Below, piece after piece: positions 206-59,689 of a DNA stretch of 64,000 nt. A program made the translations under genes and the position numbers. Position 1 is the stretch's first letter. The number at the start of each line of letters is the position of its first letter. Below the pieces are notes generated by a model that saw only the letters and a list, made by a program, of their open reading frames with translations, searched no databases and was not told the DNA's origin. The DNA lies in the NCBI GenBank assembly GCA_033032175.1, contig CM065323.1, positions 12,462,001 through 12,526,000 on the forward strand. Reading direction: 5' to 3'. The stretch comes from Saturnia japonica (Eukaryota; Arthropoda; Insecta; Lepidoptera; Saturniidae).

Positions 206-1684
206 CTCCAGTAATCATAGAGACACCGAAAGTGAGCACTATAGACGTTAAAGTTGGTGATGAACTCCAACTCCCGTGCAGGGCTAGCGGCTACCCAAAA
301 CCTGGGATCAAGTGGATTCACTTTAACACTGATTTAACAACACAGCCGAAACCTATAAGGTACTCATATCTAGTTTAATGAAAAATTGCTATTTATAATT
401 TTATTACAAAAATAGAGAAATATATAATCTGCAACTTACTTCAAAGAGATAGCAGTGAACCATACTTTAAAGGAATGAAGGTACTCGCATTCCTATTTTT
501 GTATATTTATGAGGTAGCTGTGTTTGTTAAAACTCATTCTCTTTTACTAAAAATGAGACCTCATTCTGGTCCGAGGTTAGAACAGAGAGGATTTTGTCAG
601 TATGCTGTAGCAACATAGTTCTCCACTGGGAAATTATTTATAGAATGGGTCCAGGAATATTTGTATATTATCAAAACTTTCACCAGAAATAAGGTGTCTG
701 AATTTATAAAATAGTTATGTTTAAAAGGAAACTTAAGGAATTTCTCATCAGTAAATGGTTTACTTTATTACTGAATTTATGCATACCTTAGTAAAATAAC
801 ACTTTTTAATTGGTTCTGTACTTACTTGCATTTATGGTTTCCCTGACTTATTAACCTTATTTGTAATTAATTATAACTTCAACCCATAATTTGTACACTT
901 TCATGTAAAATGTAGTTATCTAATTTTTACAACTACATTAGCAAATAAATTATTTGCTATTGAATTTCTCGTAGCACATTCATAATAGAAATTGATAAAG
1001 GCTTTATAAACAAGGCAACATTTAACTAAAAAGAAAACGAACTTCAATGATTTGGAATTATCAAACCTCGATTATCTATATTATATTATCTATTATTATC
1101 CTCGATGTATCTTCGAAGTCGAAGGTTCAATGCCAAAGAAATAAAAACAGAACCATTCTTGAGGTATTACCTTCCAAAAAAAAAAGAATCATCTAAAACG
1201 GTGTATAAACAAAGAAGTTATGTTTGAACATCTATAAAAAACGTCTTCCTTTTTTGAAGTCAGTTAAAAAAGACGTGATAAGAGAAAAGATTTCAATAAG
1301 TTGGTACGACAAATTGACTGCGCTTTATAAAATAATAACCGCAGAATAATGAAACAACTAGACGTTGATAGATTTTTCATCATGAACTATGTAATAGAGC
1401 AGTGACGATCCAATTTGGCAAACGCCATATTGAATATTTTTAATTTAATTTTTAGCAGTATATGCTATTGGAATGTCAGAGATGGAATTCTATATCTATA
1501 AGCCGTTTACCAAGAAATCTGTGAATTATATCTCTAAAAATATTATAATACTTTTTTTTTCACAGGACCAAAGGCAGCACTTTACATTTATCACATATAC
1601 AATTAAACATGGCTGGATACTACACTTGCATCGCAAGTAATATTGCGACATCATACAATATCTCATACTTAGTCAGAGTTTTAG
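206..1684 (+). CDS. Gene A Ig domain (equivalent of gene B Ig9)
   Basis: Two exons, 206-359 and 1566-1684, separated by a phase-2 intron. The first carries the B-strand cysteine (LPCRASGYPKP) and the core tryptophan (IKWIH); the second carries the F-strand motif GYYTCIASN. This is the standard I-set pattern Cys, Trp, YxC. The 1.2 kb intron holds a repeat at about 1010-1260 but no other coding sequence. Matches gene B exons 47428-47581 and 49007-49128; the second exon is one codon shorter here. Confidence 0.88.
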
Positions 1685-12651: not shown

Positions 12652-12925
12652 TCCCTATACATGTGTGCGTAAACTGTGATGTTTACACAAACATGCACCG
12701 CGGTTGTTGAACATATTTCGAATTACTGAGAACTATGAAGTTGTTTCGAGATATTTCTGGAACAGGATTCTCTCTCTTCCCAATCGGGTTGTAACAGTTC
12801 GTAACAATAATATAATAGTATAGATGTAAATAATAATACGGTGGTTACCGATGCTCGTGTATTTTACATCGAATCAAATACAAAACACAATATAGTCTCT
12901 ACGTCATTATCATGGCTTTACTGTA

Positions 12926-13630: not shown

Positions 13631-16600
13631 ATGGGTTTAAAATGGTTGTTTTTATTGGTATTTGTTTATATGTTCTGTGAATGTAGAAGTGATAATTTAA
13701 AAGGCAGTTTGACTTTCGTTATTGATGATACGCCTTCGATGGGAGATGATATTGACGAAGTGAAACGCAGAGTAAATCATATTTTTGATGCCGTTTATGA
13801 TTCCAAAGATTCAAGTGTAGAAAACTTCGTTTTGGTTTCTTTCAATGCCCCTGGTGAGTTAGTGAATTTATTATTAATTAATTACTGGACCTGACTTCAT
13901 TCAAATGAAAATATTTCACACGTTACTGCTCAACCCTATAGAGAAAATTTTAATATTGAATTACAAGCTTAAGGTTATCATTAAGTAAAGGTTCGTCTTA
14001 ATTTGGTTCCTTAAGTTTAATTGATTTAACTTTTTTTATTTTTAAAGCTTGATTTAATCAATGCCTTAATGTTTGAAGCCTAGATCCTTTCTCGGGTTCA
14101 GTTCTATATTAATATAAAAAATACATTAAAATTAGTTCAGTAGTTTTCAAGTTTACTTCATACACTTAAAACTTACCATTTTATTACTTATAATATAGAA
14201 ATATACATAGTTATTAAAGATATCACGGTAAGCAAAACAAAAAACCTGCGGAATTTGTTTGTTGGAATCTCAATACTGGCACGCACTAACACATCCACTT
14301 GTATATAATACAAAAACGTAGGCGAGAGAGAGAGTGTGTGTAAGTAGTATCCAGTAAGAGCGGCCACATACAGTAGTTTTCCGTTCGTAGTTTCCTACGA
14401 TCCGAAATTCAGCATGGTAGTCTGTGCTTCCGGAATCTCGCACAGAAAAAAACTATTTCGAATGCAGTTACATTGAGTCATATATCAAATATTTCTTTCC
14501 AATGAATTTTTGCAGTTAAATTGATTTAAAGATAATAATATATTCAAATTCTTTAAAACAGTTAATTGGTGGAATGAGACGATCGTGGTAGCAACAGACA
14601 TACAGTCCAATCAACATTAAAATTTAATCATAAATAGTCCGGTCAATTTAGACATTCGAAGTTACATAAAGTCCCAACAAGCTGAATTTCTGTGAAGTTG
14701 TTCAAAACAATTATAAACAATGTCTAGAAGTTCCCCATCATTCCCCTGTAAGGAAAAAATTTAATTCAAGATCAAAGGTCAAAAAATGAGTTTTTTGCGA
14801 TTTTCAGCAAAACGGTAAGTTTTATCATAAAAGTACCTCAGACAAAAATTGTAGATCATAAAATTATCTATAAAAAATGTATCAATACTTTTTTTCTTAC
14901 GAGCCACCGTTTCTGAGATATAACGATTCAAAAAGTTATAAAAGTTGTTATCGTCATAATATGCATGAGTACGCCACGTATATACATCTAGAGTTGTAAT
15001 GTTTTATATAATATATATATGTATGTATATTATTATATATTATATTATATATTATTATATTATTATTATGTATTATATTATATATTATATAATAAATGTT
15101 TAAATATTTTTCTATCGGTCATTGTAACTTATACTTAGAATATAAAATATACATAAGTTTTAACTACAAGAATATCAGGTAAAATGAAACCCAGTCCCTT
15201 AATCTTTAAGCTAGTGTAACAGGATCACAACTGACCCGTGGAGTAGGCCTACTGGGGAAACCACGTTAAAAAAGCGCGCTAAGTACACTACCTCATAGGT
15301 GGCGTGGAAACGTGTGCATATTATGACGATAACAACTTTTATAACTTTTTGAATCGTTATATCTCAGAAACGGTGGCTCGTAAGAAAAAAAGTATTGATA
15401 AATTTTTTATAGATAATTTTATGATCTACAATTTTTCTCTGAGGTACTTTTATGATAAAACTTACCGTTTTGCTAAAAATCGCGAAAAACTCATTTTTTT
15501 TACCTTTGACCTTGAATTAATTTTTTTCCTTACAGGGGAATGATGGGGAACTTCTAGACATTGTTTATAATTATATTTTGAACAATTTCACTGAAATTCA
15601 GCTTGTTGGGACTTTATGTAACTTCACTCTCATTTTTTGGTCTAAATTGACCGGACTAAAAACTGATATAAATTACTAAACAATAACCGTAAAAATTTAA
15701 ATGTTTCATCAAACAGTTAATGCAAGTCCTGATTTTCACATGATTGTAGTCGAATTGGCCAATGGTATAACGATCAGATTTGTACGCAACTTTGTATGTA
15801 CACAGTAGGTACGAGTGGTCGATAATTCGAATCCCTCTACTTATATATTTTTTAAATTAAAATAGATTTTTAAGTTTTTAAGTCACACGGCCCTCCATTA
15901 CGCTCTTTCCTTACTTTACGATTTCTGCAAGTCAATTCCTACCGCAAGCTGCGTTGATAAGCATTGTTCCAATAAGCACAAAAATATATTACAGCTAATA
16001 ACTACAGCATCATATTTCCCTTCACTCAAACTTCAGGATCATTGTAGGATCCAATCTAATCCAATCCAGGAGTCCAATTCGTTTGACGTGACGGTCAACC
16101 CCGCTAGCACTGAATGATCGTCGCTTCGATTTAATGTATTCGATCCCGTAACTTGAACTGATACTTAAGAAAACAAAATGATCAACCTAAAAGGTGGTTT
16201 TCGTCAACCACCACAATCTATTGCACATTCGTAAGTTAGCCTAATTATATAAAATAGACAGAAAACTCGACAGACATTTTAAAAGACACCAAACGACGCA
16301 CGCACTAGCTAGAACTCTTCCCTTTATTCTCTGTCAAATTTAAGAAAAAGACAAAACAACCCACTCGTATAAAATCTACATCGCGTATTCTTATTACCTA
16401 GATCTTATGACTTACATCACGGCCTCTGGAAATACTAGGGCCGGGTTGACTTACTATAGGGCTGAATTACATCTTTAAAGCGGAGACACCCAAGCCAACC
16501 TCAACTGGACGTGTTGTACCCTGATGATTACAGAAAGAAGAAATGGCGATAGCGGGGAGATAGGGCTGTATTGCCTAACTGGGTAGCGATTGCATGTGGT

Positions 16601-19600
16601 GCATATGCATGTGATGAAAAGTCTCGGTAGTCGCTGTTATGTTAGGATTATATTTTGCGTAAGGGAAAGTACGGTAAATCTGCCGTGTTACTATAAAAAA
16701 AAAATGTTTCTATAAATATTTCAGGTACAAAATTATGGGCTAAAACTCGTGACCGGCATATTTTTAAAACGCAATTGGAAAACATACGTGTTGGTCGAGG
16801 CAGTACATGCCCTGCGAGCTCTATGTCAGGCATTGAATTAGGACTAAAAGAAAGTCTTCCCGGTTCTTATCTCTACGTCTTCACTGACGCATCAGCAAGA
16901 GATTATACTTTACATAAGAGAGTGAAGAGCCTCGCGCAAAGCAAATCTTGTCAGGTATATATTTACACTGTTTAGATAGTGACGCAAAATTTTGACCAGA
17001 ATTATAATTGTGACATAGTCCTCTATTATTAATACGTGAAGCAAAAGCTTTCGGTATCCTTTTAAGCATATTACGAGCACAGAATACTGTGAGATTTATA
17101 TGGAGAAGGAGTACAGAAAGCTAAAGTGTATCTATAATATCTGTTACTAATATATTATTTTATAAAATATATTTAAATAAATTAATACTGCGAATCCTAA
17201 ACCAACAAGTGCCATTGAACTTAGACCCCCCAACATATTGACAATGTCACTCAACGAAAAGTGACAGCAAGTGATGTAGATAATACCTACTCATTGTTTA
17301 TGAATGCTATAAATGTCAAACAGACTATAGTCTATGATCAAAAAGTCGCTGGTCGAATTTGAACCTTAGGGGCGATCGCTAGTAATACTTAAATAATTCT
17401 TAGTTGTATATAAAAATCGGGTAATATGGTATTTTGTAAAAATTCCGGAAAGTATTTCGTTTCTAAAGGAAAACTACGCTATAATCCCTCCTGTTCAAGC
17501 AGCCTTCTTTCGTATTGACTTTTGTTATAGTGAGGTTACTCACTATGAATTTTTTGTAAACTAGCTGTGCCCGCGGCTTCGCTCACGTGGATTACAGAAT
17601 GCCCGCGCGAATATTGCTCTTCCGCTCCCGTCTATTTTGACAAAAATGCTTATTGTGGGTGTTCCTTAGAAGATATACGTATACTCTCGCTAATTTTTTT
17701 GTAGGTTTTTTAATGTCTACAATTATGTACTACATTAATTTACTATTTATCTTATAGTTTACTCAGCTTAAGTCATTTGATTAATAATGAATAAAATACC
17801 TAAACGAAACTTTTAGTCTTGGTTCCTAGAGTTTAAAAATAATTACAATTGTACTACAGACACTACAGTTTTTGTCAGACAATATTTGTTTCTAGATCGT
17901 ATTTGCTTTAACTGGAATGTGTGGATCTTATACCGATCCAGATTACAATGTTTTTGTTACGCTTGCAAAAGCTACGAATGGTCAAGTGTTCCATTTGGGT
18001 AAAGTGGATGTTGGAGATGTAAGTACTTTTTATTTTAACTTATTGTTACATACTAATTAGATCCACAAAATTGGTGATATTTATATCATAAGGTTACTTG
18101 AGACGAGAGATAATTCGTGTTGCAACTTCCTGGGACACTATTCTTTTATCACAGATTTCCGAAAAGGCAGATATTGAATACGCAGAACACGGAAAGATCT
18201 TCAACAATTAAATACAATTCAAATGCAAATATTATCTTGTGTCATTTTTTTAAATACATCCTCATAAATTAATGGTACCAGGTGTTTTTTTAATTTTATC
18301 ATCGTTTATGTATAAACTGTAAAAAAACCTAGTAATAAAAATAGAAAGTCAGAGTAACCTTTTATTGATAAAAATGGATATTTGGATAAATTCCGTGTTA
18401 TTTGTTACTTATTACAAAAGTTCAACAATGCTGTTAGGTTATATTGAAATATTTTCTATGAAGTTAAGGTAAGATACGTATGGGGCGTTGGAATATCATT
18501 TTATTTATAACCTGAAAACCTCGAAACTAAAAGGAGGATAATTTTTATTACGTTATTATATGATAGCGATCAGCAAATAATAAAAGATAGAGCAAAATTA
18601 GTGTCTCCATTGAAAAGTCTAAGATGTCTGTAATTATGGGTTAATGGTGGCGTGTACACACCACGCCTCATTCCAAGTGAGTTAAAAGCCCCGCAATAAA
18701 ACTGAGCTTTCGATGAAAGAAAATATCTTTATGAAACCATGGCGATATTTTTCTTATTTATATGCATAGTCCAGTATTTTTCTATTTAATTTTCCGTTTG
18801 AATCTCTGCAATGAGCTTGTGTTTTTGGGGTTTTTCTGAAGCCTACCAGGCTAGCTGCTACTACCCTCAATTTGAAAATCTGTCACCAAGAACCCATTGA
18901 TGTATTCTGACAGCTGAACTTTAGAGCCAATCTTCCAATAGCCTTAGTGTGCTAACATTTTGGGCCACATCTTAACTTAAGATCAGGCGACATTGTGGCC
19001 ACAACGCTAAAACCTATAACAATTTAAAAAAAACATCCACGATGGGTTTTTTATCGCACCACAGTATAGGTCAATAAAACAACGACGACCACCGATAAAT
19101 CGATAATTCATTGACAGACGAAGCTGAAAGTCTCTCTGCAATTGAATATACTCTAGATGATTCCAAACGCGATACGCCCAAGCGTGACTCTAAGGATACT
19201 GTTAGTGTATAAAGGTCGCCATCCAATTCCAATCCAATCTGCTGAAATAATAGTAGTTTATGAAACTGTTGCATAATGACGGGTATTACGAGTGTGTTTT
19301 TAATAGTATCACACGATTATTTTAATACATAGTTATGTGACGTTTTATACACTATTTTATCTACTCTCATGCATTGGGACTGAACCTATAAAGGGTCAAA
19401 CATAAAAGAGTAAGAAATATTTTATTGATTATAATAATTATTCAAGTTTTGTATGTTGCAATTATGAAATTGTATATGTATTACTGGGTAGGCGTTAGCG
19501 TTAGAGATGGTCACACTTACTGTCAGGGTCATTGGCAAATTAATATTAATGTCGTTCTCTTTTGCATTTTCCATTCCATAAAGATGCCGTGATACTGCGA

Positions 19601-20171
19601 GAGCATTTTAGCATTTATATATCATTTTCTGGACTTTGCTGGTAATACATTATGAGTAATTTCGTCAATTCCGTCGTTCTATCTAAAATGTCCGGCGGAG
19701 TAAAATGTTTTTCACATTCACTGCTATCAAACATTTTACAGCAAGAATAAAAAAAAACCAGGAAATTCAGTACTACATTAAAAATGTATGAATGATGCCA
19801 AAACGAAGCACATATTCTCCTATATAATAGAGTACTTTGTGCTAAATAGAAATGTACTCTGTGACCAAACACATGAACGCGCATGCGTTAAAGCGAACGC
19901 TGCCACATAAAAGTAAAAATTCGAATCAAAACTTTTTTGTAATTCGAATTTTACGATATCAGAGTAGATAAAGTATATTTTAGGCCTGATTGTGGGAACT
20001 GAGGAATACAGCAACCCACAATTCAAATAGTCTAATAGTATAAAACACGGTTATATTTTAGTGATATTTTTCTTGTTTTAGTTATTAAGTTATGTGGTGG
20101 AATCTGTAAAAGGTGGAAGGAGTATTGTCACTAGAAAGGAATATAGCCCTGGATATGGTAACAAATTTACA
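13631..20171 (+). CDS. Gene B signal peptide and hemicentin-type vWA domain
   Basis: Exons 13631-13853, 16725-16954, 17896-18018 and 20082-20171. The start ATG opens a clear signal peptide (hydrophobic core WLFLLVFVYMF). The vWA begins GSLTFVIDDTPSMGDDIDEV, which keeps the metal-binding pattern DxTxS (hemicentins usually have DxTGS; here Pro replaces Gly). Further hemicentin-like landmarks are STCPASSMSGIELGLKESLP, YLYVFTDASARDY, IVFALTGMC and NGQVFHLGKVDVGD. Intron phases are 1, 0 and 0. The first intron is 2.9 kb and contains the foldback element at 14635-15658. In hemicentins the vWA domain mediates adhesion in extracellular matrix; metal binding here is predicted, not shown. Confidence 0.87.
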
Positions 20172-23100
20172 GTAAGTAATAACAATATTCGTTTTTATTT
20201 AAACAATATGTTGATCCTTAACCAATATAGTATACAAGATAGGGTAAACAAACAACTGAAATATAAACTTATACCCATATCAAATCGATTTATTTAAAAT
20301 TGATTTTGCGTAGTTACAATGAACATAATAAAAAAATACAATAATAGGCATTGGGATATCGATATGACGAGAGTTCAATAAGCCGGCGTAATTTATCCTC
20401 ATTGATTTCCCAAAGGTGTTTGACATTCGGTTAAACGGTTACGTTTGTGGAACACCTTACGTTAAAATAGGCACACCAAAACATCATCTTCTTCTATGAT
20501 GCCTGTTTCATCTTCAGGTGTTTTCCAAGTGTATGTATGGTGTACGGTGGACCTTTAATGTACTTTTTCAGTATGAAAATATATACATTATTTTGCTTAC
20601 GTGTGACATAAGTGCGATAAAGCACTTTATTGTCGAACCTTATTATAACAATCAAGAGATATATTTGTCACACATTGCAAACGGAGCAATATGCGTTAGC
20701 AATGTATGAATGCATTGCTTGCCTTGAGCTTTTATAATTTTTGTAGGAATTTGTTATTTACTTACAGCTTTAGTATTTTTTAAGCATTTATTGTTAGGTC
20801 TGACTTTTGATTTAAAAAATCTAACTCAAGAGGGCATGGCCAATTTTAGTCAGAATCCTGAAATATGTATAAAAGAAATTCTGACTAGTTTTGTCTATAA
20901 TATATTTTACAACAATGTACAGATAGTTATCATGAAACTCAATTATCAAGTTGTTCAAAAAATTTATTACATGGTTATATAAATGTTTTTACAGTTTTCA
21001 GTCGATAAAGCAGATCATGACATTATCTTATCGGTTTCTGGTGAGAAACCAAAAGTATCTGTAAAAGATGACGAAGGAATTTCGCCGAAAGCCGAACATC
21101 TTGTTGATAAAGATAAAATTTCGGTTGGTATTGTAATATTAATAATAAATTATCACACTAATATGCCATCAAGTAATAATAATAATAGGTCGGGGAAAAA
21201 GTTTCTTCGCATTTTTATATAAAAACTAAAAAACATTTTTTTCAATATTTATTTACAGTATATATATGCCGTTTTGTTCGATGACTTTCTGCCATTTTAT
21301 AGGTAGAGACATGATCCCGTTGCTGTAGAAACTTTGGGATTTCTGATAAAAAATCGCGACAAATAGTTTTGCCAGTCCTCTCTTGATGTTAACTTTACAG
21401 AACCTAAAGAATTCTGAAGAGACCGAAACAGGCGAAAATCTGAAGGTGCAAGGTCAGGGCTATATAGTGAATGCACTAACACCTCCCAGTCAAACTCTCT
21501 TCATTTTTGCTGAGTGGCTTAAGATGTGTGTAATCTAGCGTTATCGTGATGAAAGACCACATCCTTCCTATTGATCAATTTAGGCTGCTTTCTTTCAACT
21601 ACTTCCTTTAATCTCATTACTTGTTGGCAGTAGAGATCCGAATCGATGGTTTTGCCGGGCGGTAAAAGCTCATAATGAACAATGCCCTTCCAGTCTCACC
21701 ATACATACAGCATCACCTTATTTCGAGTTAGCCCAGGTTTTGCCAAAGTCTGTGAAGCCTGGCCGACCTTAGACCACGACTTTTTTCACACGCTCTTATC
21801 GTGCGTGATCCACTTTTTATCGCCAGTTATCAATCTCTTCAAAGGCGGCTCGGTTTCATTACGTCTCAATAATGAATCGCAAATGAGTACACGGTTCATT
21901 AGGTGTTTTTCAGTGAGCTCGTATGGGACCCAAATATCGAGCTTTTTGGTATAGCCAGCTTTCTTCAAATTGGTTAAAACTGTTTTGTGGTAAATTTCCA
22001 GTTCTTCAGCTACATTGTAACTACCGACATGCCGATCTTGCTCCCCTTTTTAAAAAATGGCGTCCATTTTATTCGTAACAGGGCGACCAGAGCGAGGTGC
22101 ATCTGTAACATCAAAATTTCCGGTCGGAAAATGTTTGAACCAACTTTGTGCTACTCTTACTAATACTGCATTACGTCCATAAATATCATTAATTTTTTTG
22201 TATCCTTGTGTTGCATTTTTATCTTTTTTGTAATAATATTTTAAAATGTATCGAATTTCTTCATTAGATTCACTCATTTTTACAGAAAGGAAAACAAATG
22301 AAAAATAGCGGGAAGCTACACTTTTTCTTTTATTTTTTTTTAATTTTTAATGTAACCATTTTTAATGTTACCAAAATCAGCCAGATACAAATAGTACAGC
22401 CAAAGAAATTTTATAACAAGTTTATATCTACGTTATGCGAAAACACTTTTTCCCTGACCTTATATGTATTGATTGCTACCATTGCATTCTACTCAAAAAC
22501 TCAAAGTTTACTATAAGTACCCTGATTTCTATTGAAGAGATCTGCAAGTTATCAGTGAGTTTTGTTTTGAAATCATAATGATAAGAACTAAACAACAACT
22601 ATCGTATTTAGTCTAGTAGTTTTCTTTTTTAACTTACACCATGACGATTGACTTATTAGTTGTCTGATATTTTTCCCCTTTAGCACTTGAGTGTTACGGT
22701 GGCATTCAGTCACCAATTATCAAACCTATACATCCCGTATTTCCCGCGGGCCAATTTCTTCAAATTTGGCACTAACGGAGGTATTTTAACAAAGTTCAAG
22801 GGAATAAATTCAGATAATAAGGAATTTCTAGTCCAGTGTGAAATTGTAATGCAACGAAATTATTTGAAGTTTTTTTTCCTCGATAATGGTTGCAGGTATA
22901 AAATTAAAATCTTATTATACTCAGTGAGCAATTCTTGTATATATATATATATATATATATATGTAATTGGTTTCTCGAAAACGGCTCCAACGATTTCGAT
23001 AAAACTTTGCATTTAGATAATGTTTTACATTCCAAGTTTACCTAGATAGGTGTTTTTTTTTTTTGTTAGACCCCGAGCCCAGCTCGGTCGCTCAGATAAT

Positions 23101-53100: not shown

Positions 53101-56100
53101 AGAAAGACAAAAAATTTAAAAAATTGGCTTTTTGTTATAGTTATCGTATATACTTTCATATGCATTAAGTAAAAAACTGTTATTTTGAAATTACAAACAG
53201 AAACACAAATGTATTATTTGTATAGATACCTAATCCTTTTTTGATAAAACTTTAATCATTTTATTGAAATGTTATAAATACCAAAAATAACAAATTCTTT
53301 AGTACTTTAATTAAGCCAAAAAAAAGTTAATGGAAGAATGTCACTACACTTTTCCATTGTACCTACTATTTTTTTACGTAAAGGTAATTAGGTTACGCAA
53401 GTAATGAAACGTTATCGATTAAAGTAATTTGCGGTAGCTCTTTGATTGAATGGTTGAATATCATTCAGACCGCTAGTGAAACGGCGCCGTTTAGTAAAAA
53501 GGTTAGGCTGTTAATTGAAAGGCTAATTAAGCTATTTCGCTCGCTCGCTCGCTTGTCACCTTATAAAATGGCTTAACAGTAGAAACTAAAATAAACTTGA
53601 ATTAGACAAATTTTTCTTAATGTTATTGAGCCGTCTGTCTCTATTTAACATGTGAAGTAATTGTCATTATTAGATACATAATTACTAGATATATATTTTT
53701 AGGATACTAAATTGATAACCGACGGTGAACTAACGTTACGTAATGTAGAGATGTCAGACGCTGGAGTTTACACTTGTCGAGTGAGCACATTCTCTGGATC
53801 AACGTCAGAGCACACGTTGGTCAAAGTCGGTTTTAAACCAAGTTTTACCACTCGCCAAGATGAAGTTTATTATCTTGAAGATGCAATCGGGTCACAAACT
53901 TTTATTTGTGACGCGATTGCGGCACCGCCCGCTAAGGTACTTATAATATTTTTTACAACAAAATTAAAGGCAAGAGTTATGACAAACGGTACAAGTTTAA
54001 ATTTAAAAAAAATCTATTTTAAAAGAATTATAATATGTGTTTACACTTATGGTTCTTAAACAAGACTAACTTAAAACTAATTAAAACTAATAATCATGTT
54101 GAAATCACGCCGTCGTTTCTCATGGTCGTAATCTTCATGGTCAGCGATATCACGGTCCGTGTCTGCCGGTCCCATGGTTTATGACATGGTAACTCAAGCA
54201 GTCATTTTTTATTATATCAAATTAGACCAGACCTATATCAAATCACCATCACCTCACCAGTATACGTCCGCTCTGCACTACGGTCGGCGCTTTTTATTCT
54301 CGCCATTTTTTTTTTTTTTTAACTGACTACACTGTTAGCCTTAGGAGCCCTGAAGCCGCTGTGGTTTTGCAGCTTCACCGAACTTGGTACGCGCTCGTCT
54401 CTGTTATATAGGCGCGTCAGACGAAGTTAAATTATTTTTACGCAAAAAAGTCAGCCCGTCCCAGTTTCGCACAAGTACAATTTACAAAGAGGTGTATTTT
54501 ACGTTGAAATATTCCTGATTTATAATTTATCGCTTTAATATTGATAGGTCATAACTGTCTTATTAATCTAGTGGTCCTAAACGCGACTGCTATGGTCGAG
54601 GTCCTAGGTTCGATTCCCAGGTCGCCCAAAATGTTATTGAGGTTTTCTATGAAATTCTCAGTTAGCACCTCGGAGTTTGGTTTTGTGCCCTATTAATGGC
54701 AAAAGGAAGGCACACTATTACATGAGACCTAAAACATATCCGGCGAACTGTGGGTGTACACAGTGGGCTAACACTTCAGGGATACAGGCGTAATGGTAAC
54801 GTAATGGTTATAAATAAAACCTACCTACCTATTATCATTTTTCTTTTTTTTCGGTGATAGTTGAAGTTGAATTTTACGAATATATAAGTAACTTCATATT
54901 TACTAATAGTGCGCTTAACTTGCGACGCGCAATATATCATACATGGGAAGAGCAGGCCAACCGACCACGGCCGGTTTTGCTGAGTGGGATTTCTTAGATC
55001 GTGAGGAATTTTGATTTTGTGATATCTTCTACGGTATCCATTTAAATGGTAAACTATTTAGGACAATTGTAATCTACATTAAATAACTAATAATTTTATC
55101 TGGATAAAAATTAATACTGAATTGGGGAAAACATCTTCGTAAATAATGTAATATTTTTGATTAATTGTTTAAGATAAAAATGGTTACTGTGAGTCAACCT
55201 TGGGAGATAGACATATACCATCGCGGCCTTTTTCTCTAAGTTTTTTAAAGAACTACAATTATTTATAACATTATTTTGATGTAACCCATAAGGTTTAAAT
55301 TGTAGTGAAAAGCGCATTAATGTCCGCTGTGTATTTTAAAAGATCTAAGCGTACATAGGGACAGATAGCAGGTAGCGCCATTACCTTAAACTATGTATCT
55401 AGATCCTTTATAAGAAAACTGAAACAAGCTTTTATAAATCGCACATCGAGTCTATGGAAGATTTCACTTCAAAAAACAATTTTTTTTCTGTTCAATTTAT
55501 CTTTTCCAATAATTGGAAATACTGCCATTGAATAATAATAACCGTGACAAAGTATGAAACAAAGTAAATTGAGAATTGAAAAAAACTTTAACAATTCATT
55601 AAGACCATTGCAAGACCAATCACGATATCTCTGCTGTGGGTAGTTAAGTATGCTGCAGAATTCAGTTGATGCTGCAGCATCAGGTCACGATTGAATGATT
55701 CCCTAATATCATTAAAGTGACAGTATACCAAATTTCGACTCGATCGGAGACCTATGCAAGATGCTCAAATCTATTTATCTACTAGAAAAAAGGCGATAAT
55801 CTTCAAACGGCAGGTGTTATTGAATCCTACCTAAGAACACTCTCGATCAAGTCAATTTCAAACAAAAAAACTAAATGAAAATCGGTTCAGCCGTTCAGGA
55901 CCTACGATATCACAGAATACACACGTTAAACTTATAAAACCCCAAAGTTTGCGTCGGAGTTGAAATTATTTTCATGAGTATTAAAATATTATTATTGTCT
56001 TGAAAACAAATAATATTCTTCTCACAGGTCACTTGGTGGTACAATGGTATAAAAATAAATGTAACATACATGTTTTACACATTCGAACCTGAATTTAGCA

Positions 56101-59100
56101 AACGTGGAAAGTACTATTGTGAAGTTTCAAATGATTTTGGGAGTATAAACCGTTCATTCTACTTACGAACAACAGGTAAATGAGATAATCGTATCACCGA
56201 ATATATCAAAAAACTTTCCTCTTCTTACATATTTTATAGCGAACCAGTAACTCCATTGACAATAATTTCTATGTGTAACATTCTGCTGATGTCTATAGAA
56301 TTTTTAATACATTGCTAATAGTTATAAACCATGAGCGTTAAATAATTTATTATAACTACTAGCTGTGCCCGTGGCTTCGCTCACGTGGACTACAGAATGC
56401 CCGCGCGAATTTTGCATCTCCGCTCCCGGCTATTTTAAAGACCAAAATGCTTATTGTGGGTGTTCCTTAGAAGATAGATATATACTCTCTCGGATTTTTT
56501 TGTAGTTCTATTTAATGCCTATAATAAGCCATTTAAACGTCCGAATTGATTCACCGTGACCAGATTTTTTATTTGTGCGGAACCCTAATTCTTTTTCTAA
56601 AATAAAAGTAACTTAAGTTACTCCCTATATCATCAGCTATCTATCATTGAAAGTCTCGTCAAAATCGGTCCAACCGTTTCGGAGATTACCCGGAACAAAC
56701 AGACAGACAGACAGAAAGACAAAATTTTAAAAAATGGGATTTTTGTTATAGTTTTCGTATATACTTTCATATGAATTTAGTAAAAAACTGTTATTTGACA
56801 TTACAAATAGACACTCAAATTTATTATTTGTATAGATGATCGTTCAATGGGATAGAAGCGCTATATATTTCTGCACGACTTAAATGTTATAGAAATTTTA
56901 AATAAAAATATGCTCTTTTTGGTAACGCATCAGGTAATAATCACCAAGGCCGTTTTGACCAACCACTACAGGAACGTGTTGTAACATTTTGAGCCATAAG
57001 TTCATATAATATTTAAATACATTTCAGATTGCATTATCGACATTAAAAAAGATCTCACGGGAAATCAGCCAATAATGATAGACTCACCATTAATATGGCC
57101 AAAATATGAAACTACTGATGGTCACATTCGCATACGGAGAGAAAAAGAATATTTACGACTCAACTGTCCAACCGCTTTCTCAATAATGCCTATAAATTTT
57201 ACCAACGCTTACTGTGAGACTGAAAGTGATTTCCAAATAAATGGCATTTCTTACAAATATTCTGATATAAAATGTACAGAGGAAATAAAACCTGAAGTTA
57301 TAGAGATGGGAGAAGAATGTTTCGACAGCGAAACTGAATGGATTACAATAGGGTTTACAATTTTTAATAAACTCTTACCAGTATATAATATATGTTTGGA
57401 CAGGAAAAATAAAGTACCTATTTATACAAAGCATATTTTAGATAGATATTTAGCTGAAGTAGAGCCTGAGAGTTCAAAATGGTCAACCGGCAACCTACCT
57501 TTTAATTTTGATGAAATGTACGATTGCAATTATCAGACGAACGTGATATTACACGAATTAGATGGATGGTTTCGTAGAGTAGATGGATGCTGTTTCACGA
57601 AAAGGCAGTTGGTGAATCCCCGAGACGTGCCTCCGGGATTAGCGCAAGTGGCAACTTATAACTATCTAAATGTGGTTCCTCAGTGGAGCTCGTGTGGGAA
57701 TAAGGTAAGTCATTTTTCAAATCATTGATTCATTTGAGTTTAATATTTAAGACATTTTTGTGAATCTGTACATCGTCATCCTGTTATGCATTAATCTTAT
57801 CTGGATCTTAATGGATGGCTATCACAATTCTCCAGGTGTTAATACCTTGATATAATTATGCTTGTCGAGTTCTGGGATTAGCCGGTTTATATCCAGGAAT
57901 CAAACGGACTGGTAAGGATTAGTATCCGATTAAGTCGCAACCACTAAGCACAACTTGATAGGCCTGTCCACTGACTCTCCTTTAGTTTGTCGTGTTTTTT
58001 GGATTGTACTGTGCTTACTATATGGTATAGTTATGTACTTTGCCGTGCTTTTAATCTAATATATCAATTTTCTCCTCATAATTGTTTCAATTTCAAACGA
58101 ATACATTTTAGTATAATATAGCATGGTCTACATTTTGATGGGACATGCAAAAACGCAAATATCGCATCATCACCAAACAAAGTACAGACTAAAATTATTA
58201 TGAATTTGTTGACTTTTTTATCACTGCTCTTTTCTTCTATTGTCTCTAGAGCTACAAAACAATTGCTAATTATTTCATTGAAATGACACAAGGAACTTAA
58301 TCCTCATAGTACTACGCTGTTAATGCTTACCGAGCAAGGAATGGGTTTTAATAGTATATCTCCTTTCCACTGTCTCTAATTACTATTAAAGTGGCCTTAT
58401 TACAGAACTGGGAAGAAGTGGAAAACCGATTGAGGATTTTTGTTAAGGCCATCGATCATCCTTTAACGGTTTGGACTGGAACCAGTAAAACCTTAGAATT
58501 ACCTAATGCGGATTCTTTAATGACAGAAGTATTCATTAGCGATTCAACTGATGAGAGTCAGCCGATATCGCAGTATTTATGGAAGGTACGTTTTATATAT
58601 ATTGTTTTTGTAAATAATGCCTCTTCGGGAATCACTTCCTCATGTAGCAAGTGCTATAAGTAAGTAACGAGCTGTTGATTGGTCTCGAAATACATCAATG
58701 GACAATACACCGAAACAAGCCCTATAAAGGAATACCTACCATTAACTGGAAATTAGAACTGTAATTGGAAACTTGTTATCGTGAAGCAAATTGTTGAAAA
58801 ACATATACACTCTGATATATTCATATAGGTACTGTGAATATTTTGTTGTATAGTTCTACAATGAAACAAACAAAATATTATTACGTTCAGTTCAACCACT
58901 GTAATTTTTTTTTTAATAAGTACCCTGAGTTAGAACTGCTGTGCTATTTAAAACTGGTTATAGATTGTTAGAAAAAGGCTGTAACCAAAGATTAATTACA
59001 ACTGCATACTTATTTAATTTTTTTTAATATAACTCTAGGGTAGGAATATTTTTTTTTTTTCTTTAAAATAATTTCTTGATAATCAGCCCCTAGGAAATTC

Positions 59101-59689
59101 CAATAATGCTTTTGCATTACATCACTAAGATGCAGTATTCTCTCAGTCACTTTACGAATTAATCCAACATCTCATCTCTCGATTTTTATTACATACTTTA
59201 TGATGATAGAATCATTGTCTAAGGAAACACTGGGTCACACTTGATCTTAGCGCATAACATTTGATGACAAATATTTTTAAGGGTTATTTGCTTACTATTG
59301 TACAAAAAATCCAATTAACCGAAAACATTTAATTTTGTTTTAAGTGTGTAGAGTCTTGCATTTAGGGGTAAATACGAATTCATATTAAAATGTGGATAAA
59401 AGATACTGTTTCAATGATCTGTCTTTATTTCCAGGTTGTACAAGATCAGGTGAAAAAATCATCTTTGGCTATCATTCAAGTCAACATACCAGACTTATCT
59501 GCCTCCGAGGTGAACAAATATGTTCTATGTAAAGACATATGCCACAAGATCCGATGGATGATGAATCCAGATTGGCATGATGTCAATAAAGGTTACACAT
59601 ATTGTTGCAGTTTGGGAGAATTCAAAAGAGAGTTTAAAATCGATCTCGATCGAATTTTCTATAACGGGCATAGCCGTATACTTTACTGA
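13631..59689 (+). CDS. Gene B: complete vWA + 12 Ig + nuclease-like secreted protein
   Basis: Thirty-two exons assembled by eye: 13631-13853, 16725-16954, 17896-18018, 20082-20171, 20995-21123, 24008-24173, 24898-25091, 25208-25289, 26618-26778, 27186-27357, 27846-28094, 33462-33534, 33823-34019, 35613-35784, 36540-36634, 38767-38921, 39316-39487, 39983-40231, 42215-42287, 42555-42751, 44086-44257, 45092-45186, 47428-47581, 49007-49128, 49945-50088, 51093-51230, 51657-51769, 53703-53936, 56028-56175, 57028-57704, 58406-58585, 59435-59689. The sum is 5634 nt, divisible by three, with every junction in phase: 1877 residues. Approximate domains: signal peptide 1-20, vWA 24-222, linker 223-412, Ig1-12 413-1507, nuclease-like module 1508-1877. 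The N-terminal half follows vertebrate hemicentin; the end does not (no EGF or fibulin repeats). Least certain border: the donor at 21123. Probably extracellular; function unknown. Confidence 0.88.
14635..15658. mobile_element. Foldback-type element with about 350-base terminal inverted repeats
   Basis: Left arm about 14637-14985, right arm about 15300-15656. The outer ends read AGTCCGGTCAATTTAGAC and its complement GTCTAAATTGACCGGACT, and TA dinucleotides flank both ends, as for Tc1/mariner-type insertions. Matching inner landmarks include the TTACGAGCCACCGTTTCTGAG block and its complement. The centre holds a TA microsatellite and no transposase. The apparent frame at 15304-15543 lies inside the right arm and is not a gene. 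Non-autonomous; its transcript would fold into a long hairpin. Confidence 0.85.
15003..15095. repeat. AT-rich microsatellite inside the foldback element
   Basis: Imperfect TA/TTA repeats in the loop between the two inverted arms. Confidence 0.85.
15659..16724. other. Rest of intron 1 of gene B, no gene seen
   Basis: Mostly unique-looking sequence, less AT-rich around 16000-16600, with no extended frame that resembles a protein. A short segment at about 15755-15840 has a vaguely tRNA-like ending (CGAATCCCTCTAC) but no cloverleaf that I could draw. Probably old repeat sequence. Confidence 0.35.
16990..17395 (+). repeat. Dispersed repeat family R1, copy 1
   Basis: Shares with about 47970-48335 (same strand) and 50205-50545 (opposite strand) the order TTAATACG.GA, ATGGAGAAGGAGT.CAGAAAG, AATACTGCGAATCC, CATTGAACTTAGACCCCCCA, CAGACTATAGTCTATGA and AAAAAGTCGCTGGTCGAATT. 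About 400 bases, no coding potential. Looks like a SINE or MITE family; copies sit in three introns of gene B. Confidence 0.7.
17560..17785 (+). repeat. Repeat family R2 (ACTAGCTGTGCCCGCGG head), truncated copy
   Basis: Begins ACTAGCTGTGCCCGCGGCTT and includes CAGAATGCCCGCGCGAAT and TTGTGGGTGTTCCTTAGAAG. The same series opens the longer copies at 52708-53228 and 56358-56838. An abundant type of non-autonomous retroelement tail in Lepidoptera as far as I recall; exact family name not assignable here. Confidence 0.65.
18019..20081. other. Intron 3 of gene B, no gene seen
   Basis: About 2 kb without a recognisable exon. The segment 18640-19060 has moderate GC, with a GATGAAAG..ATGAAACCATGGCGAT pattern resembling the tails of lepidopteran LINEs (compare 25560-25620). 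The longest frames (19615-19884 and 19820-20026, minus) show no domain and overlap each other. Confidence 0.4.
20995..25289 (+). CDS. Gene B hemicentin-type linker region after the vWA domain
   Basis: Exons 20995-21123, 24008-24173, 24898-25091 and 25208-25289 (residues about 223-412). They follow the region after the vWA in hemicentins: FSVDKADHDIILSVSGEKPK, then VKFTKPSPGNYTAEVG, TTVNFQHGFSTLKPSSLDDT, a charged beta-rich segment (KSFLMIKLNVGIDDDVDV) and TMFKIMITGID. The donor at 21123 is weak (TCG|GTTGGT); an alternative in-frame donor at 21132 (ATT|GTAATA) would add three residues. Homology to hemicentin favours the shorter form. The 2.9 kb intron after 21123 contains a mariner copy. Confidence 0.75.
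21188..22460 (-). mobile_element. Mariner element, inactivated, minus strand
   Basis: About 1.27 kb bounded by terminal inverted repeats GGTCGGGGAAAAAGTTTCTT (left) and the complement of AGGTCAGGGAAAAAGTG (right), each flanked by TA (21186-87 and 22461-62). On the minus strand, transposase pieces run in order: MSESNEEIRYILKYYYKK with SWFKHFPTGNFDVTDAP (22277-22050), a block ending LKRLITGDKKWITHD with the first catalytic Asp (21968-21786), and HSLYSPDLAPSDFRLFRSL with the third Asp of the DD34D triad (21482-21297). The pieces sit in different frames and stops intervene, so no functional transposase. Inserted in the intron between linker exons of gene B. Confidence 0.9.
22930..23100 (+). repeat. 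Repeat family R3, copy 1, with TA microsatellite
   Basis: Starts with a (TA)n run after TTCTTGTA, then ACGGCTCCAACGATTTCGAT, TAGATAATGTTTTACATTCC and AAGCTCGGTCGC-like text. The same order recurs at 34570-34738 and, reversed, at 61838-61960. Probably the 3' tail of a non-LTR element. Confidence 0.7.
24310..24530. other. Intron sequence with a GC-richer patch
   Basis: Between exons ending 24173 and starting 24898. Overlapping frames occur on both strands, with a G-rich run AAGGGGGGGTTG, but no protein similarity that I recognise. Probably a repeat fragment. Confidence 0.3.
25320..25700. repeat. Lepidopteran SINE/LINE-tail fragments
   Basis: Contains GATGGCAAACAAGCATACTG and, further on, GTGAAGGAAAACATCGTGAT. 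Both resemble short motifs very common in moth genomes. The first recurs at about 47725-47900 as GGTGGCAAACAAGCGTACGG. Non-coding. Confidence 0.5.
25782..25998 (+). repeat. Two tandem copies of a poly(T)-headed SINE-like unit (family R4)
   Basis: Units of about 108 bases each: CGGTTG + T run, GAACTGACTACACTG, GCCCTA, GCCGCTGCGGCTTTTACAGC, TTCACCGGA, GGGGCAACGG. The two are nearly identical except for a few substitutions and one short deletion. Related sequences: 29337-29580, 54306-54420, and reversed at 48460-48520 and 61430-61645. Confidence 0.8.
26618..27357 (+). CDS. Gene B Ig1
   Basis: Exons 26618-26778 and 27186-27357, phase-0 intron. First exon: KPSISIEGEPKINVEYDEPF, then LKCKVNAYPKPTITWKDK. 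Second: NSNGTYECTASNDYGVITKS. The acceptor at 26616-17 (TTTAAAG) has a poor pyrimidine tract, but it is the only one that keeps frame and matches the Ig5 exon. The second exon differs from the Ig5 second exon at only four positions by eye. Confidence 0.83.
27846..28094 (+). CDS. Gene B Ig2, single exon
   Basis: One exon of 249 bases, phases 1-1: a self-contained module. Core residues: DTITCIIDAYPPVTITWYK and QRGLYKCVAKNEYN. Nearly identical to Ig6 (39983-40231), and the similarity continues past the donor into the intron. Followed by a 5.4 kb intron full of retroelements. Confidence 0.87.
28544..29165 (+). repeat. Retroelement-derived repeat R5, copy 1
   Basis: Begins AACTAGCTGTGCCTCTCGAT and carries CTTTATGATGAAATAACTTT, ATTCGTAAGGATTA and AAAATGCCTTATTGTGGCTTA. 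A second copy lies at about 60247-60945. No ORF. It runs directly into the tandem units starting near 29165, and may be the head of the same larger element. Confidence 0.65.
29337..29580 (+). repeat. R4 SINE-like copy nested inside R6
   Basis: T-rich head, CTGACTATACTGTTAGCCTA, GCTTGGGGGCGAACGCTTAA, GCATGCGCAC-like and GTGCCAAAGTGGCCAG segments. The same long form occurs reversed at 61430-61645. Confidence 0.6.
29735..30345 (-). pseudogene. Degenerate Jockey-like reverse-transcriptase C-terminus in a GC-rich insert
   Basis: Read on the minus strand, about 30345-29985 gives a broken C-terminal LINE protein: PSYHDI*AALHSHK, then YIKYLTRSYFDTASNHVN, LLVKAAAT*TPKPNIPRE, RSRISSPSPFIRS. This fits the Jockey-clade tail (YFD.A..H.N.L...A..Y.P.P). 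Several stops; not functional. The adjoining 29735-29985 is much more GC-rich than the intron around it and belongs to the same insertion. Confidence 0.6.
31567..33290 (+). repeat. Tandem repeat R6 unit 2, uninterrupted
   Basis: Two 112-base subunits (31567-31790), then the same body as unit 1 to TATGTATAGAAGATAG at about 33285. Copies align over more than 1.2 kb by shared landmarks. Short frames within it (for example 31338-31631 in unit 1) are not genes. Confidence 0.7.
33462..34019 (+). CDS. Gene B Ig3
   Basis: Exons 33462-33534 and 33823-34019, phase-2 intron. The 73-base first exon is too short for an ORF list but is fixed by phase and by its Ig7 counterpart: PPKIEKLVHEIYVTKGTDVD ending IMC. 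The second exon supplies GIPEPEIVWFYKKSEKKEFE and KSGLYKCQAVSDLGA. Lysine-rich C'-D region. Confidence 0.86.
34160..35330. repeat. Intronic repeat pair and R3 copy 2
   Basis: About 34070-34430 and 34950-35330 are diverged copies of one segment (CATATTC.GATTCTGGCTTC, GAAAAGGCAAATATTC, GATGTTTCTGTGATTA, GATGAAGTCTACGCTC). Between them lies R3 copy 2 (34570-34738). The frame at 34167-34427 belongs to the repeat. A related segment occurs in the homologous intron at 43200-43600. Confidence 0.6.
35613..36634 (+). CDS. Gene B Ig4
   Basis: Exons 35613-35784 and 36540-36634, phase-2 intron. First: PPLMKYKDEVITAKDQEEVI, LTCEVDGLPTPSVKWLKNGK. Second: KMSLEDGGVYSCHAENHLGT. A CpG-rich insertion (35865-36390) occupies the intron; the matching Ig8 intron lacks it. 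Confidence 0.86.
35865..36390. mobile_element. CpG-rich insertion in Ig4 intron, probable retroelement 5' fragment
   Basis: Base composition differs sharply from the flanks. It contains a small frame starting ATGGCGGCAGCGG at 36231 (about 50 residues, Arg/Ser-rich) preceded by AT-rich sequence. This could be the leader and gag start of a retroelement; no diagnostic domain is visible. Absent from the paralogous intron at 44258-45091. Confidence 0.4.
36635..38766. other. Intron between Ig4 and Ig5, no gene seen
   Basis: About 2.1 kb. The GC-richer patch 37130-37310 (CATGACGGTATCTCATGCCA) and 38160-38440 look like repeat fragments. The frames at 36713-36901 and 38218-38441 show no recognisable domain. 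Confidence 0.4.
38767..39487 (+). CDS. Gene B Ig5
   Basis: Exons 38767-38921 and 39316-39487, phase-0 intron. EPTISIEGEPKIIVEYDEPF, LQCKVNAYPKPVINWVDK, then NSNGTYECTASNDYGVITKS. The second exon is nearly the same DNA as in Ig1. Confidence 0.86.
39983..40231 (+). CDS. Gene B Ig6, single exon
   Basis: 249 bases, phases 1-1. DTITCNVDAYPPVTITWYK and QRGLYKCVAKNEYN. Differs from Ig2 mainly in the first dozen codons; the rest and the following intron start are nearly identical. Confidence 0.87.
40310..40880. mobile_element. CpG-rich insertion in the Ig6-Ig7 intron
   Basis: High CpG content (CGGCCCGCCCCGCCCCCC near 40520) inside an AT-rich intron, and absent at the homologous site after Ig2, where retroelements of other kinds lie. 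The frame 40394-40630 has no known domain. Probably part of a mobile element. Confidence 0.35.
41600..41690 (+). repeat. tRNA-like SINE head
   Basis: GCCTCGTAGTATATTGGTAG resembles a box A region and GGGTTCGATCCCTGCAT (41655 onward) a box B. I could not close a full cloverleaf, so this is more likely a tRNA-derived SINE than a tRNA gene. Confidence 0.45.
42215..42751 (+). CDS. Gene B Ig7
   Basis: Exons 42215-42287 and 42555-42751, phase-2 intron. SPKVEKLVHEMYVTRGTDVD ending IWC, then GIPKPKIVWFYKKSEKKEFE and TSGLYKCQAVSVMGK. Counterpart of Ig3. Confidence 0.86.
43656..43897 (+). pseudogene. RTE-like reverse-transcriptase fragment
   Basis: NNNAPGDDGITAKLLKTGGK then, after a frameshift, VVMLFFKKGDNAQLKSYRP and LVHKLF. 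This is the N-terminal reverse-transcriptase region of RTE-type LINEs (NKAPG.DGI..ELLK.GG ... FKKGD...NYRPISL). Frameshifted and cut off at both ends. Confidence 0.65.
44086..45186 (+). CDS. Gene B Ig8
   Basis: Exons 44086-44257 and 45092-45186, phase-2 intron. PPKIKHNNVVMKAKYGSEVT, LPCEVDGIPTPSVQWFKNDK, then KVSAKDGGLYICHAKNHLGR. The first exon ends CG before GTGGGT, so the junction codon is Arg, as in Ig4. Confidence 0.86.
44612..45060 (-). repeat. Repeat family R2, reverse copy
   Basis: On the minus strand it follows the order of 52708-53228: GAGCGGGG-type head region, TATTTTAAAGAC, TTGTGGGTGTTCTTTAGAAG, GGAACCCTAATTCTTTTTCT, GTAACTTAAG-like, CCGTTTCGGATATTACCCGG. Confidence 0.65.
45681..46895 (+). 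mobile_element. Mariner element, inactivated, plus strand
   Basis: About 1.2 kb with ends GGGTCGCGGAAAAAGTTTCT and the complement AGGTCGGGAAAAAGTTTCT. TA follows the right end (46896-97); the left TA is mutated or shifted. Transposase begins at about 45849 (MSEFNEEIQATQ). Catalytic blocks: LKRLITGDEKWIT (46228-46295), VVFYYDSARPYTSLATQQK (about 46540-46600) and HPPYSSDLAPSDFHLFRSL (from 46619), forming a DD34D triad split across three frames. Same subfamily as the copy at 21188-22460, opposite orientation. Lies in the intron between Ig8 and Ig9. Confidence 0.9.
47030..47191 (+). pseudogene. N-terminal fragment of a second mariner-type transposase
   Basis: From the ATG at 47060: MENLKYRFIYEYEFPLGISA, AAETARRINDVYGE, then divergence to a stop. 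This is the helix-turn-helix start of a different mariner lineage from the copy ending just upstream at 46895. No inverted repeats or catalytic part found nearby. Confidence 0.6.
47428..49128 (+). CDS. Gene B Ig9
   Basis: Exons 47428-47581 and 49007-49128, phase-2 intron. First: VTIEPPRESIKKVKVGDKVH, LPCRARGNPKPTINWIHYN. Second: RGSNSLSLSHIQLNMAGYYT, CVASNIGSSYN. Counterpart of the first visible domain of gene A. Confidence 0.87.
47970..48335 (+). repeat. Dispersed repeat family R1, copy 2
   Basis: Same series as copy 1 (16990-17395): ATTAATACGCGAGAAG, TGGAGAAGGAGTGCAGAAAG, CATTGAACTTAGACCCCCCA, AAAAAGTCGCTGGTCGAATT. It is preceded at 47725-47900 by a SINE-like fragment. At 48460-48520 a reversed R4 fragment follows. 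Confidence 0.7.
49481..49550 (-). repeat. tRNA-like sequence, minus strand
   Basis: Read on the minus strand: GATGGCTCAGATGGTAGAAT (box A-like), then CGCGAGTTCGAATCCCTGCA (box B). The T-arm stem does not pair well, so a tRNA pseudogene or tRNA-derived SINE head is more likely than a working tRNA. Confidence 0.45.
49945..51230 (+). CDS. Gene B Ig10
   Basis: Exons 49945-50088 and 51093-51230, phase-1 intron. PPIIENVYKDKTFKVVEGDL, IACRATGSPEPVIVWKMHG, then IKNIDTKSGGTYTCEAENSL. Very close to gene A 2680-3096. Confidence 0.88.
50205..50545 (-). repeat. Dispersed repeat family R1, copy 3 (reverse)
   Basis: Reverse-complement order of copies 1 and 2: AAATTCGACCAGCGACTTTT, CATAGACTATTTTCTGTTTG, GGATTCGCAGTATTCATTTA, CTGCACTCCTTCTCCATATA, CACGTATTAATAT. 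It accounts for the greater length of this intron compared with the gene A intron at 2824-2958. Confidence 0.75.
51657..53831 (+). CDS. Gene B Ig11
   Basis: Exon 51657-51769 (SAHIKCYVPHGPPDYLRWYK) plus the first 43 codons of exon 53703-53936 (VEMSDAGVYTCRVSTFSGST). Phase-0 intron of 1.9 kb containing an R2 copy. The gene A intron here is about 500 bases. Confidence 0.87.
52708..53228 (+). repeat. Repeat family R2, long copy
   Basis: About 520 bases from ACTAGCTGTACCCGTGGCTT to TTATTTGTATAGAT. Includes ACAGAATGCCCGCGCGAATC, AAAAGTAGCCTAAGTTACTC and CCAACCGTTTCGGAG. Homologous along its length to 56358-56838. The ACAGACAGA-type run before the end is typical of this family. Confidence 0.75.
53832..56175 (+). 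CDS. Gene B Ig12
   Basis: Second part of exon 53703-53936 (FKPSFTTRQDEVYYLEDAIG, FICDAIAAPPAK) plus exon 56028-56175 (VTWWYNGIKINV, FSKRGKYYCEVSNDFGSIN). Ends in phase 1 at the border with the nuclease-like module, as in gene A. Confidence 0.87.
54306..54650 (+). repeat. R4 fragment and a tRNA-like SINE head
   Basis: 54306-54420: T run, AACTGACTACACTGTTAGCC, GCAGCTTCACCGAACTTGG (family R4). 54560-54650: GTGGTCCTAAACGCGACTGC, then TAGGTTCGATTCCCAGGTCG, a box B-like motif of a tRNA-derived SINE. Confidence 0.5.
56358..56838 (+). repeat. Repeat family R2, long copy
   Basis: From ACTAGCTGTGCCCGTGGCTT to TTATTTGTATAGATGATC, in the intron before the nuclease-like module. Contains an (ACAG)n run near 56700. 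Absent from the matching gene A intron (5393-5920), so inserted after the duplication. Confidence 0.75.
57028..59689 (+). CDS. Gene B C-terminal nuclease-like (Endonuclease_NS) module, catalytic His replaced
   Basis: Exons 57028-57704, 58406-58585 and 59435-59689 (TGA), phase-0 introns at the same places as in gene A; residues about 1508-1877. Landmarks: CIIDI, TDGHIRI, YKYSDIKC, EWITIGFTI, NICLDRK, GCCFTKRQLVNPRDVPPGLA, NYLNVVPQW, NWEEVENRLR, WTGTSKTLELPN, IIQVNIPD, LCKDICHKIRW, GYTYCCSLGEF. The residue at the RGH histidine position is Gln (codon 57606-57608, residue 1701); the metal-site Asn is about residue 1722. The stretch around the former active site is almost identical to gene A, while other parts differ clearly, suggesting selection on this surface. 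The C-terminus stops 13 residues earlier than in A. Confidence 0.83.

Follow-up and report, generated by a model that had tools for sequence, protein, structure and literature searches.

A predicted gene of Saturnia japonica raises the question of whether an adhesion scaffold of hemicentin type and a nuclease can belong to one secreted protein and, if so, what a nuclease would do at the end of such a scaffold. Hemicentins are built of a vWA domain, a linker, an Ig array and a G2F/EGF/fibulin-type end. The gene, here named gene B, lies in a window that comprises the whole 64,000-nucleotide stretch analyzed (C20:12462001-12526000, in a genome of 580 Mb and 402 contigs). A preliminary description, made from the letters of this window, had read it as a 32-exon model with consistent phases in which a signal peptide, a vWA domain, a hemicentin linker and twelve Ig domains lead into a C-terminal module with the layout of insect alkaline nucleases/dsRNases.

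Exon model and domains of gene B

The model of gene B was built independently: a degenerate mariner-like insert was masked, exons were chained by a dynamic programme that had been trained on the region itself, and weak junctions were then inspected by hand. Hand corrections concern the start methionine, exons 4-6, exon 8, exons 23-27 and one micro-exon that was dropped, and the final model was set after comparison with a tandem paralog, gene A. This model (window 13631-59689, plus strand, as are all its exons) has 32 exons and encodes 1877 aa with a single terminal stop, the nuclease module starting at residue 1508. AG precedes exons 2-32 and GT follows exons 1-31 (GT-AG at 31/31 introns) and phases are consistent. 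All these figures equal those of the earlier description. Several candidate exons were discarded on the way. Mariner-like pieces were taken in as exons by the first modelling run and then masked; intron 22 holds, at window 45950-46700, degenerate pieces that we take to be of a mariner-like transposase. The 15-nt micro-exon at 57897-57911 is not chosen in paralog A and disturbs the distance from PQW to NW that stand-alone nucleases have, a 15-aa exon (21401-21445) was dropped as its counterpart is likewise not chosen in paralog A, and draft exons at 25448 and 26046 were also removed.

Exon 1 (13631-13853) carries the start methionine, a signal peptide (approximately residues 1-18) and the start of the vWA domain with a DxTxS MIDAS-like motif (DDTPS), the peptide and the motif both being recognized by inspection. 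The vWA domain continues in exon 2 (16725-16954) and ends in exon 3 (17896-18018). The Pfam family VWA_4 matches the final model at residues 26-186 with 149.7 bits (cut-off 27), and on inspection the domain retains both DxTxS and the FTD aspartate. Exon 4 (20082-20171) follows the vWA domain and has 90 nt; the equivalent exon of paralog A is of equal length and has a GTAAGT donor. The hemicentin linker occupies exons 5 (20995-21123) and 6 (24008-24173), its second half exon 7 (24898-25091) and its end exon 8 (25208-25289). GBD_Hemicentin matches at residues 214-294 with 31.0 bits (cut-off 27), a score that stood at 25.3 before exons 4 and 5 were corrected.

The Ig array consists of a block present in two copies, which represents an internal duplication, and a tail. 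Copy 1 (Ig 1-4, exons 9-15, 26618-36634) is encoded at 26618-26778, 27186-27357, 27846-28094, 33462-33534, 33823-34019, 35613-35784 and 36540-36634, and copy 2 (Ig 5-8, exons 16-22, 38767-45186) at 38767-38921, 39316-39487, 39983-40231, 42215-42287, 42555-42751, 44086-44257 and 45092-45186, the two copies being identical at 295 of 370 aa. The Ig tail (Ig 9-12, exons 23-29, 47428-56175) is encoded at 47428-47581, 49007-49128, 49945-50088, 51093-51230, 51657-51769, 53703-53936 and 56028-56175, and the exon after it opens in phase 1. The proposed number of twelve Ig domains agrees with the count of a Y-x-C motif, a pattern written to fit these domains after they had been seen (12 in gene B, 8 in paralog A), and Pfam gives one fewer, with 11 significant stretches over cut-off for Ig_3 and 11 for I-set in the final model; an earlier 1885-aa draft of gene B had 12 Ig_3 stretches.

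The nuclease module is encoded by exon 30 (57028-57704), which holds its first part with a degenerate active site (TKRQL for RGHL and PQWSSCG for PQWxxxN), exon 31 (58406-58585) and exon 32 (59435-59689), which holds the end of the module (LCKDIC...YTYCC) and the stop. Endonuclease_NS matches at residues 1624-1853 with 49.6 bits (cut-off 23). A profile search of the translated model places vWA, I-set and Endonuclease_NS all over cut-off, and the order from signal peptide through vWA, hemicentin linker and Ig domains to nuclease is borne out by VWA_4, GBD_Hemicentin, Ig_3 and Endonuclease_NS, the signal peptide by inspection only. The protein has a hydrophobic N-terminal leader and, on inspection, no obvious C-terminal anchor. 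Because no G2F or EGF family occurs among the 21 Pfam matches of gene B up to E 0.001, and the protein so lacks a G2F or EGF/fibulin-type end, it is named hemicentin-like and not hemicentin.

A fused gene and its multigene cluster

Gene B could have arisen on paper by the wrong joining of two adjacent genes, one encoding vWA and Ig domains and the other a separate nuclease or nuclease-like protein, and the genome does hold other Endonuclease_NS loci without Ig matches in flanks of approximately 1.5 kb. Against such an error stands first of all paralog A, a complete gene located in tandem directly upstream of gene B (C20:12446062-12470470, i.e., window -15938 to 8470), which repeats the whole architecture and for this reason speaks against a prediction artefact. 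Paralog A has 25 exons, 1515 aa and 8 Ig domains, with one Ig block versus two in gene B, and shares 22/25 exon lengths and 25/25 phases with it. Its last ten exons (16-25) lie inside the window at 206-8470 (+), with the Ig tail at 206-5392 and the pseudo-nuclease at 5921-6597, 7029-7211 and 8189-8470, and its first 15 exons lie to the left of the window. An exon finder trained on gene B recovered most of paralog A without homology input, exons 4-5 and 14-15 of A being set by hand. In the shared part the two proteins are identical at 1097 of 1503 residues (dN 0.162, dS 0.438, ratio 0.37). Between the two genes, on the minus strand at window 10363-12654, lies a 763-aa open frame with an RVT_1 reverse transcriptase domain (94.8 bits), which presumably belongs to a LINE-like element.

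A third gene, C, is located at approximately 12358.0-12376.7 kb on C20 and ends about 70 kb upstream of paralog A. It repeats the linker-Ig-nuclease part, with linker exons (one of them again 166 nt long), an Ig block that is repeated and a nuclease in three exons, and has a weak counterpart of vWA exon 3 (E 0.015); vWA exons 1-2 were not found within the 6 kb upstream, where a retroelement sits. The large nuclease exon of gene C is 33-34% identical in amino acids to those of the window genes. Endonuclease_NS scores over cut-off in genes B, A and C (48.6 bits in C), and GBD_Hemicentin is below its cut-off of 27 in paralog A (23.1, in a draft lacking 7 residues) and in gene C (19.4).

The junction itself also argues against a separate nuclease gene. 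The reading frame open through exon 30 has no methionine before a point about 17 residues inside the nuclease module, and in six of eight modules (B, A, L024, L028, L025 and L030, the L loci being read from the printed sequence) a phase-1 intron separates the Ig part from the nuclease part, which together make an independent nuclease start unlikely. Two wrongly joined genes are therefore highly improbable. The predicted gene B is supported as one fused gene of a distinct family, as had been proposed, in which a hemicentin-type N-terminus is joined to an Endonuclease_NS layout; paralog A and the junction phase agree with this, and the architecture, repeated in full in A and partly in C, is beyond what chance would be expected to give.

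The family is a multigene cluster and goes beyond the single gene first described. A six-frame genome search with the nuclease module gave 17 matches: three exons from gene B and three from paralog A, six other large exons at C20 12.117-12.375 Mb, a C2 fragment, a divergent C12 match and three matches at stand-alone nucleases, this term denoting loci whose flanks of approximately 1.5 kb are free of vWA and Ig matches to the model. By this search at least eight fused-type modules, labelled A to H, lie within about 0.4 Mb. Six of the eight (A, B, C, D, F and G) have Ig exons upstream of the module, and none was found for E and H within a 1.5 kb flank. Modules E, F, G and H have vWA and/or linker matches upstream on the same strand, associated with them by strand and order only; no vWA or linker match turned up for D, which has an Ig exon and whose large nuclease exon is 99% identical to that of C. 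The eight modules separate as one group from four stand-alone nuclease rows with a support of 100/100, in an unrooted tree where the branch of H is long and less than half of the columns are filled in two of the stand-alone rows.

Further traces of the family and of hemicentin-type genes lie in and around the cluster and elsewhere. The modules L028 (C20 12237559, minus strand) and L024 (12374797, plus strand) are inverted, 99% identical and without synonymous differences in the large exon, and represent either an inverted duplication of very recent date or a duplicate made by the assembly. L027, on another chromosome (C2:12082759-12082935, minus strand), is near-identical to a portion of the final exon of paralog A and is either a dispersed exon copy or a retrocopy. 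Between genes C and A, at C20 12424455-12442048, vWA, linker and Ig exon matches occur on both strands with none of the 17 nuclease matches among them, and these are either rearranged remnants or shorter family members. A separate locus at C20:3231916-3237623 has vWA-like and GBD_Hemicentin matches, two of the latter over cut-off, none of the 17 nuclease matches being there, and is perhaps a canonical hemicentin.

Active-site residues and conservation of the nuclease module

Whether the fused module still cuts nucleic acids depends on residues of which we take the histidine of RGH to be the catalytic general base and the asparagine after PQ to be metal-binding. The histidine is replaced by glutamine in 8/8 fused-type modules (TKRQL, TKGQL, ARTQL, AKRQL), while six loci of the same genome, L001-L006, keep RGHL, behind which come a PQW stretch with N four residues further along and (G/A)(N/D)W; L003 and L004 are alike in the RGHL/PQW stretch. 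L007 reads DRGH, and neither L008 nor L032 has the RGH/PQW motif. The asparagine after PQW is glycine in B and A (PQWSSCG), versus PQWTGFN at identical spacing in L001, and in gene C the stretch after PQ is one residue longer and has no asparagine there. As the replacement of histidine extends to all eight modules, the nuclease module is predicted to be catalytically dead, although such a change need not abolish all activity. A locus on C12 (L032, C12:20702285-20702710) has an open frame of 319 aa that resembles the nuclease end by descent and has no RGH motif; this is possibly another inactive nuclease.

The module is 24% identical to the stand-alone L001, with which it has many cysteine positions in common, and B, A and C all retain the YCC stretch at the C-terminus. 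A profile of the modules of B, A and C together with L001, over the active-site region, matched NucA (2o3b, E 3.2e-5) and Serratia nuclease (1g8t, E 0.0084); among its 28 listed entries TBK1, surely a chance match, stands between the two. As this profile includes a stand-alone sequence with RGH, it provides no independent proof for the chimeras alone. A PDB search with the gene B module as a single protein matched no nuclease structure, and AlphaFold2 models of exon 30 only, alone and with its paralog, reached pLDDT of 29.6 and 32.0, values too low to be informative about a beta-beta-alpha-metal fold.

The module is nevertheless conserved. Between A and B its dN/dS is 0.31 (bootstrap 0.22-0.43), and in the large nuclease exon values of 0.24 (C versus E) and 0.26 (F versus G) were obtained, i.e., the inactive-looking module is under purifying selection. 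Ratios between A and B are 0.29 for the Ig tail, 0.42 and 0.48 for the two copies of the Ig block, 0.42 for the linker and 0.49 (bootstrap 0.32-0.76) for vWA; vWA and the Ig block evolve somewhat faster than the nuclease module, with overlapping bootstrap ranges. Across the three copies of the Ig block, one in paralog A and two in gene B, the second exon (window 27186-27357 and 39316-39487, and -8466 to -8295 in paralog A) hardly differs, its synonymous difference being 0.06-0.08 versus 0.12-0.54 in the other block exons. This near-identity suggests recent sequence exchange (gene conversion) among these exons.

Purifying selection, the Endonuclease_NS scores over cut-off in B, A and C, the cysteine positions shared with L001 and the retained YCC end would all suit an active or weakly active nuclease that degrades extracellular nucleic acids from an adhesion scaffold. 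Glutamine at the general-base position in every fused module, with histidine kept in L001-L006, and glycine for the metal-binding asparagine in B and A make continued activity very unlikely. Of the earlier idea of a nuclease fold tethered to an adhesion scaffold, the fused hemicentin-like scaffold and the Endonuclease_NS layout stand; the predicted loss of catalysis speaks against an active nuclease in that place.

Relation to known proteins and possible roles

Gene B and its relatives resemble hemicentins in having VWA_4 and GBD_Hemicentin over their cut-offs in gene B, a long I-set array and, probably, secretion; they differ in having 8-12 Ig domains only and in ending with a pseudo-nuclease where hemicentins carry G2F/EGF. 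They are not the sole hemicentin-type genes in this genome, in view of the other GBD_Hemicentin locus at C20:3236393-3237554. With insect alkaline nucleases/dsRNases (Endonuclease_NS, PF01223) the family shares a module-wide Pfam match, but the stand-alone L001-L006 keep RGHL, and L001 PQWxxxN, where gene B has TKRQL and PQWSSCG behind Ig domains. NucA (2o3b, 1zm8) and Serratia nuclease (1g8t), matched by profile over the active-site region, are bacterial and have no vWA-Ig part. Ig block 1 also matches hemolin (1bih) at 1.7e-20; a special kinship with hemolin was discarded, as 21 listed chains (titin, Dscam, neurofascin and others) match better.

No description of a vWA-Ig-nuclease fusion was found in a search of open-access articles. 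The parts seen of seven articles do not describe it (PMC1559612, PMC4672304, PMC12691282, PMC4553588, PMC3781088, PMC13116445, PMC11106986), the term 'nuclease' having been sought in PMC1559612 and PMC12691282. Predicted proteins of the same layout may already be present in protein databases under names such as hemicentin-like. Possible relatives, compared by description only, are the 'Hemicentin-like' hemocyte genes of Spodoptera frugiperda (PMC1559612; 'Hemicentin-like Protein 2' in PMC4553588), which are likewise hemicentin-like, lepidopteran and found in hemocytes; the parts of these two articles that were seen mention no nuclease domain. In the portions available, hemicentin-like transcripts of caterpillar hemocytes fall 2.1-2.2 fold after polydnavirus injection (PMC1559612), 'Hemicentin-like Protein 2' of caterpillar hemocytes is listed upon microbial challenge with ratios of 4.6 and 2.8, the column headings lying outside the part seen (PMC4553588), a hemocyte transcript whose best hit is mouse hemicentin 1 changes by log2 -4.5 upon parasitism (PMC3781088), and hemicentin is listed among genes high in some hemocyte clusters (PMC12691282). 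These genes provide an immune lead for the gene B family, of which they are at most possible members. Counting against an immune-only reading, hemicentin-1 is treated as a basal-lamina gene that is down in midgut (PMC13116445), and hemicentin-2 is up in a silkworm sperm mutant (PMC11106986), again as far as the available text goes.

In the model that we favor, with somewhat more than even confidence, gene B encodes a secreted hemicentin-like adhesion protein with a catalytically dead nuclease module that is kept for binding. Before the divergence of the paralogs, an insect-type alkaline-nuclease/dsRNase module would have become attached, through a phase-1 intron, behind the Ig array; it would then have lost catalysis and would have been retained as a pseudo-enzyme. 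The secreted protein would thus present a vWA head, an Ig rod and a pseudo-nuclease foot; head and rod would likely serve in self-association or in association with matrix or cells, and the foot, a dead nuclease fold, might bind nucleic acid or a protein partner as a ligand that it leaves uncut. Such a protein would most likely act as a recognition/adhesion factor of the hemolymph or hemocyte matrix in immunity. This role is drawn by analogy, and the architecture, the grouping of the modules, the replacement of catalytic residues and the purifying selection are read from the sequences themselves.

Hemicentins are matrix proteins, and the vWA and Ig parts of gene B would fit such a protein. With the catalytic residues lost, the pseudo-nuclease could therefore be purely structural, a cap or multimerization end of a basement-membrane-like protein with no nuclease-type ligand and no immune role. 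The tandem expansion, the internal duplication of the Ig block and the vWA dN/dS of 0.49 look more like a recognition family, although they are only suggestive, and we consider this structural role possible and less probable than a binding module. A bolder version of the binding model, and a rather unlikely one, is that in this expanding hemicentin-like cluster a dsRNase fold has been turned into a dead nucleic-acid sensor or decoy that, displayed on the Ig rod, would capture extracellular (e.g., viral) RNA or DNA for hemocytes. If this were true, it would represent a route of extracellular nucleic-acid recognition in insects.

Stand-alone dsRNases of the Endonuclease_NS fold limit RNAi by feeding in caterpillars, which gives practical interest to the occurrence, in one genome with them, of a homolog that is displayed and presumably dead. 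The gene B family adds a pseudo-enzyme ending to the hemicentin-type architecture, a multigene family having kept a presumed nuclease fold with its catalytic residues lost, and is a concrete candidate for how insect blood cells or the matrix achieve recognition or adhesion outside the cell.
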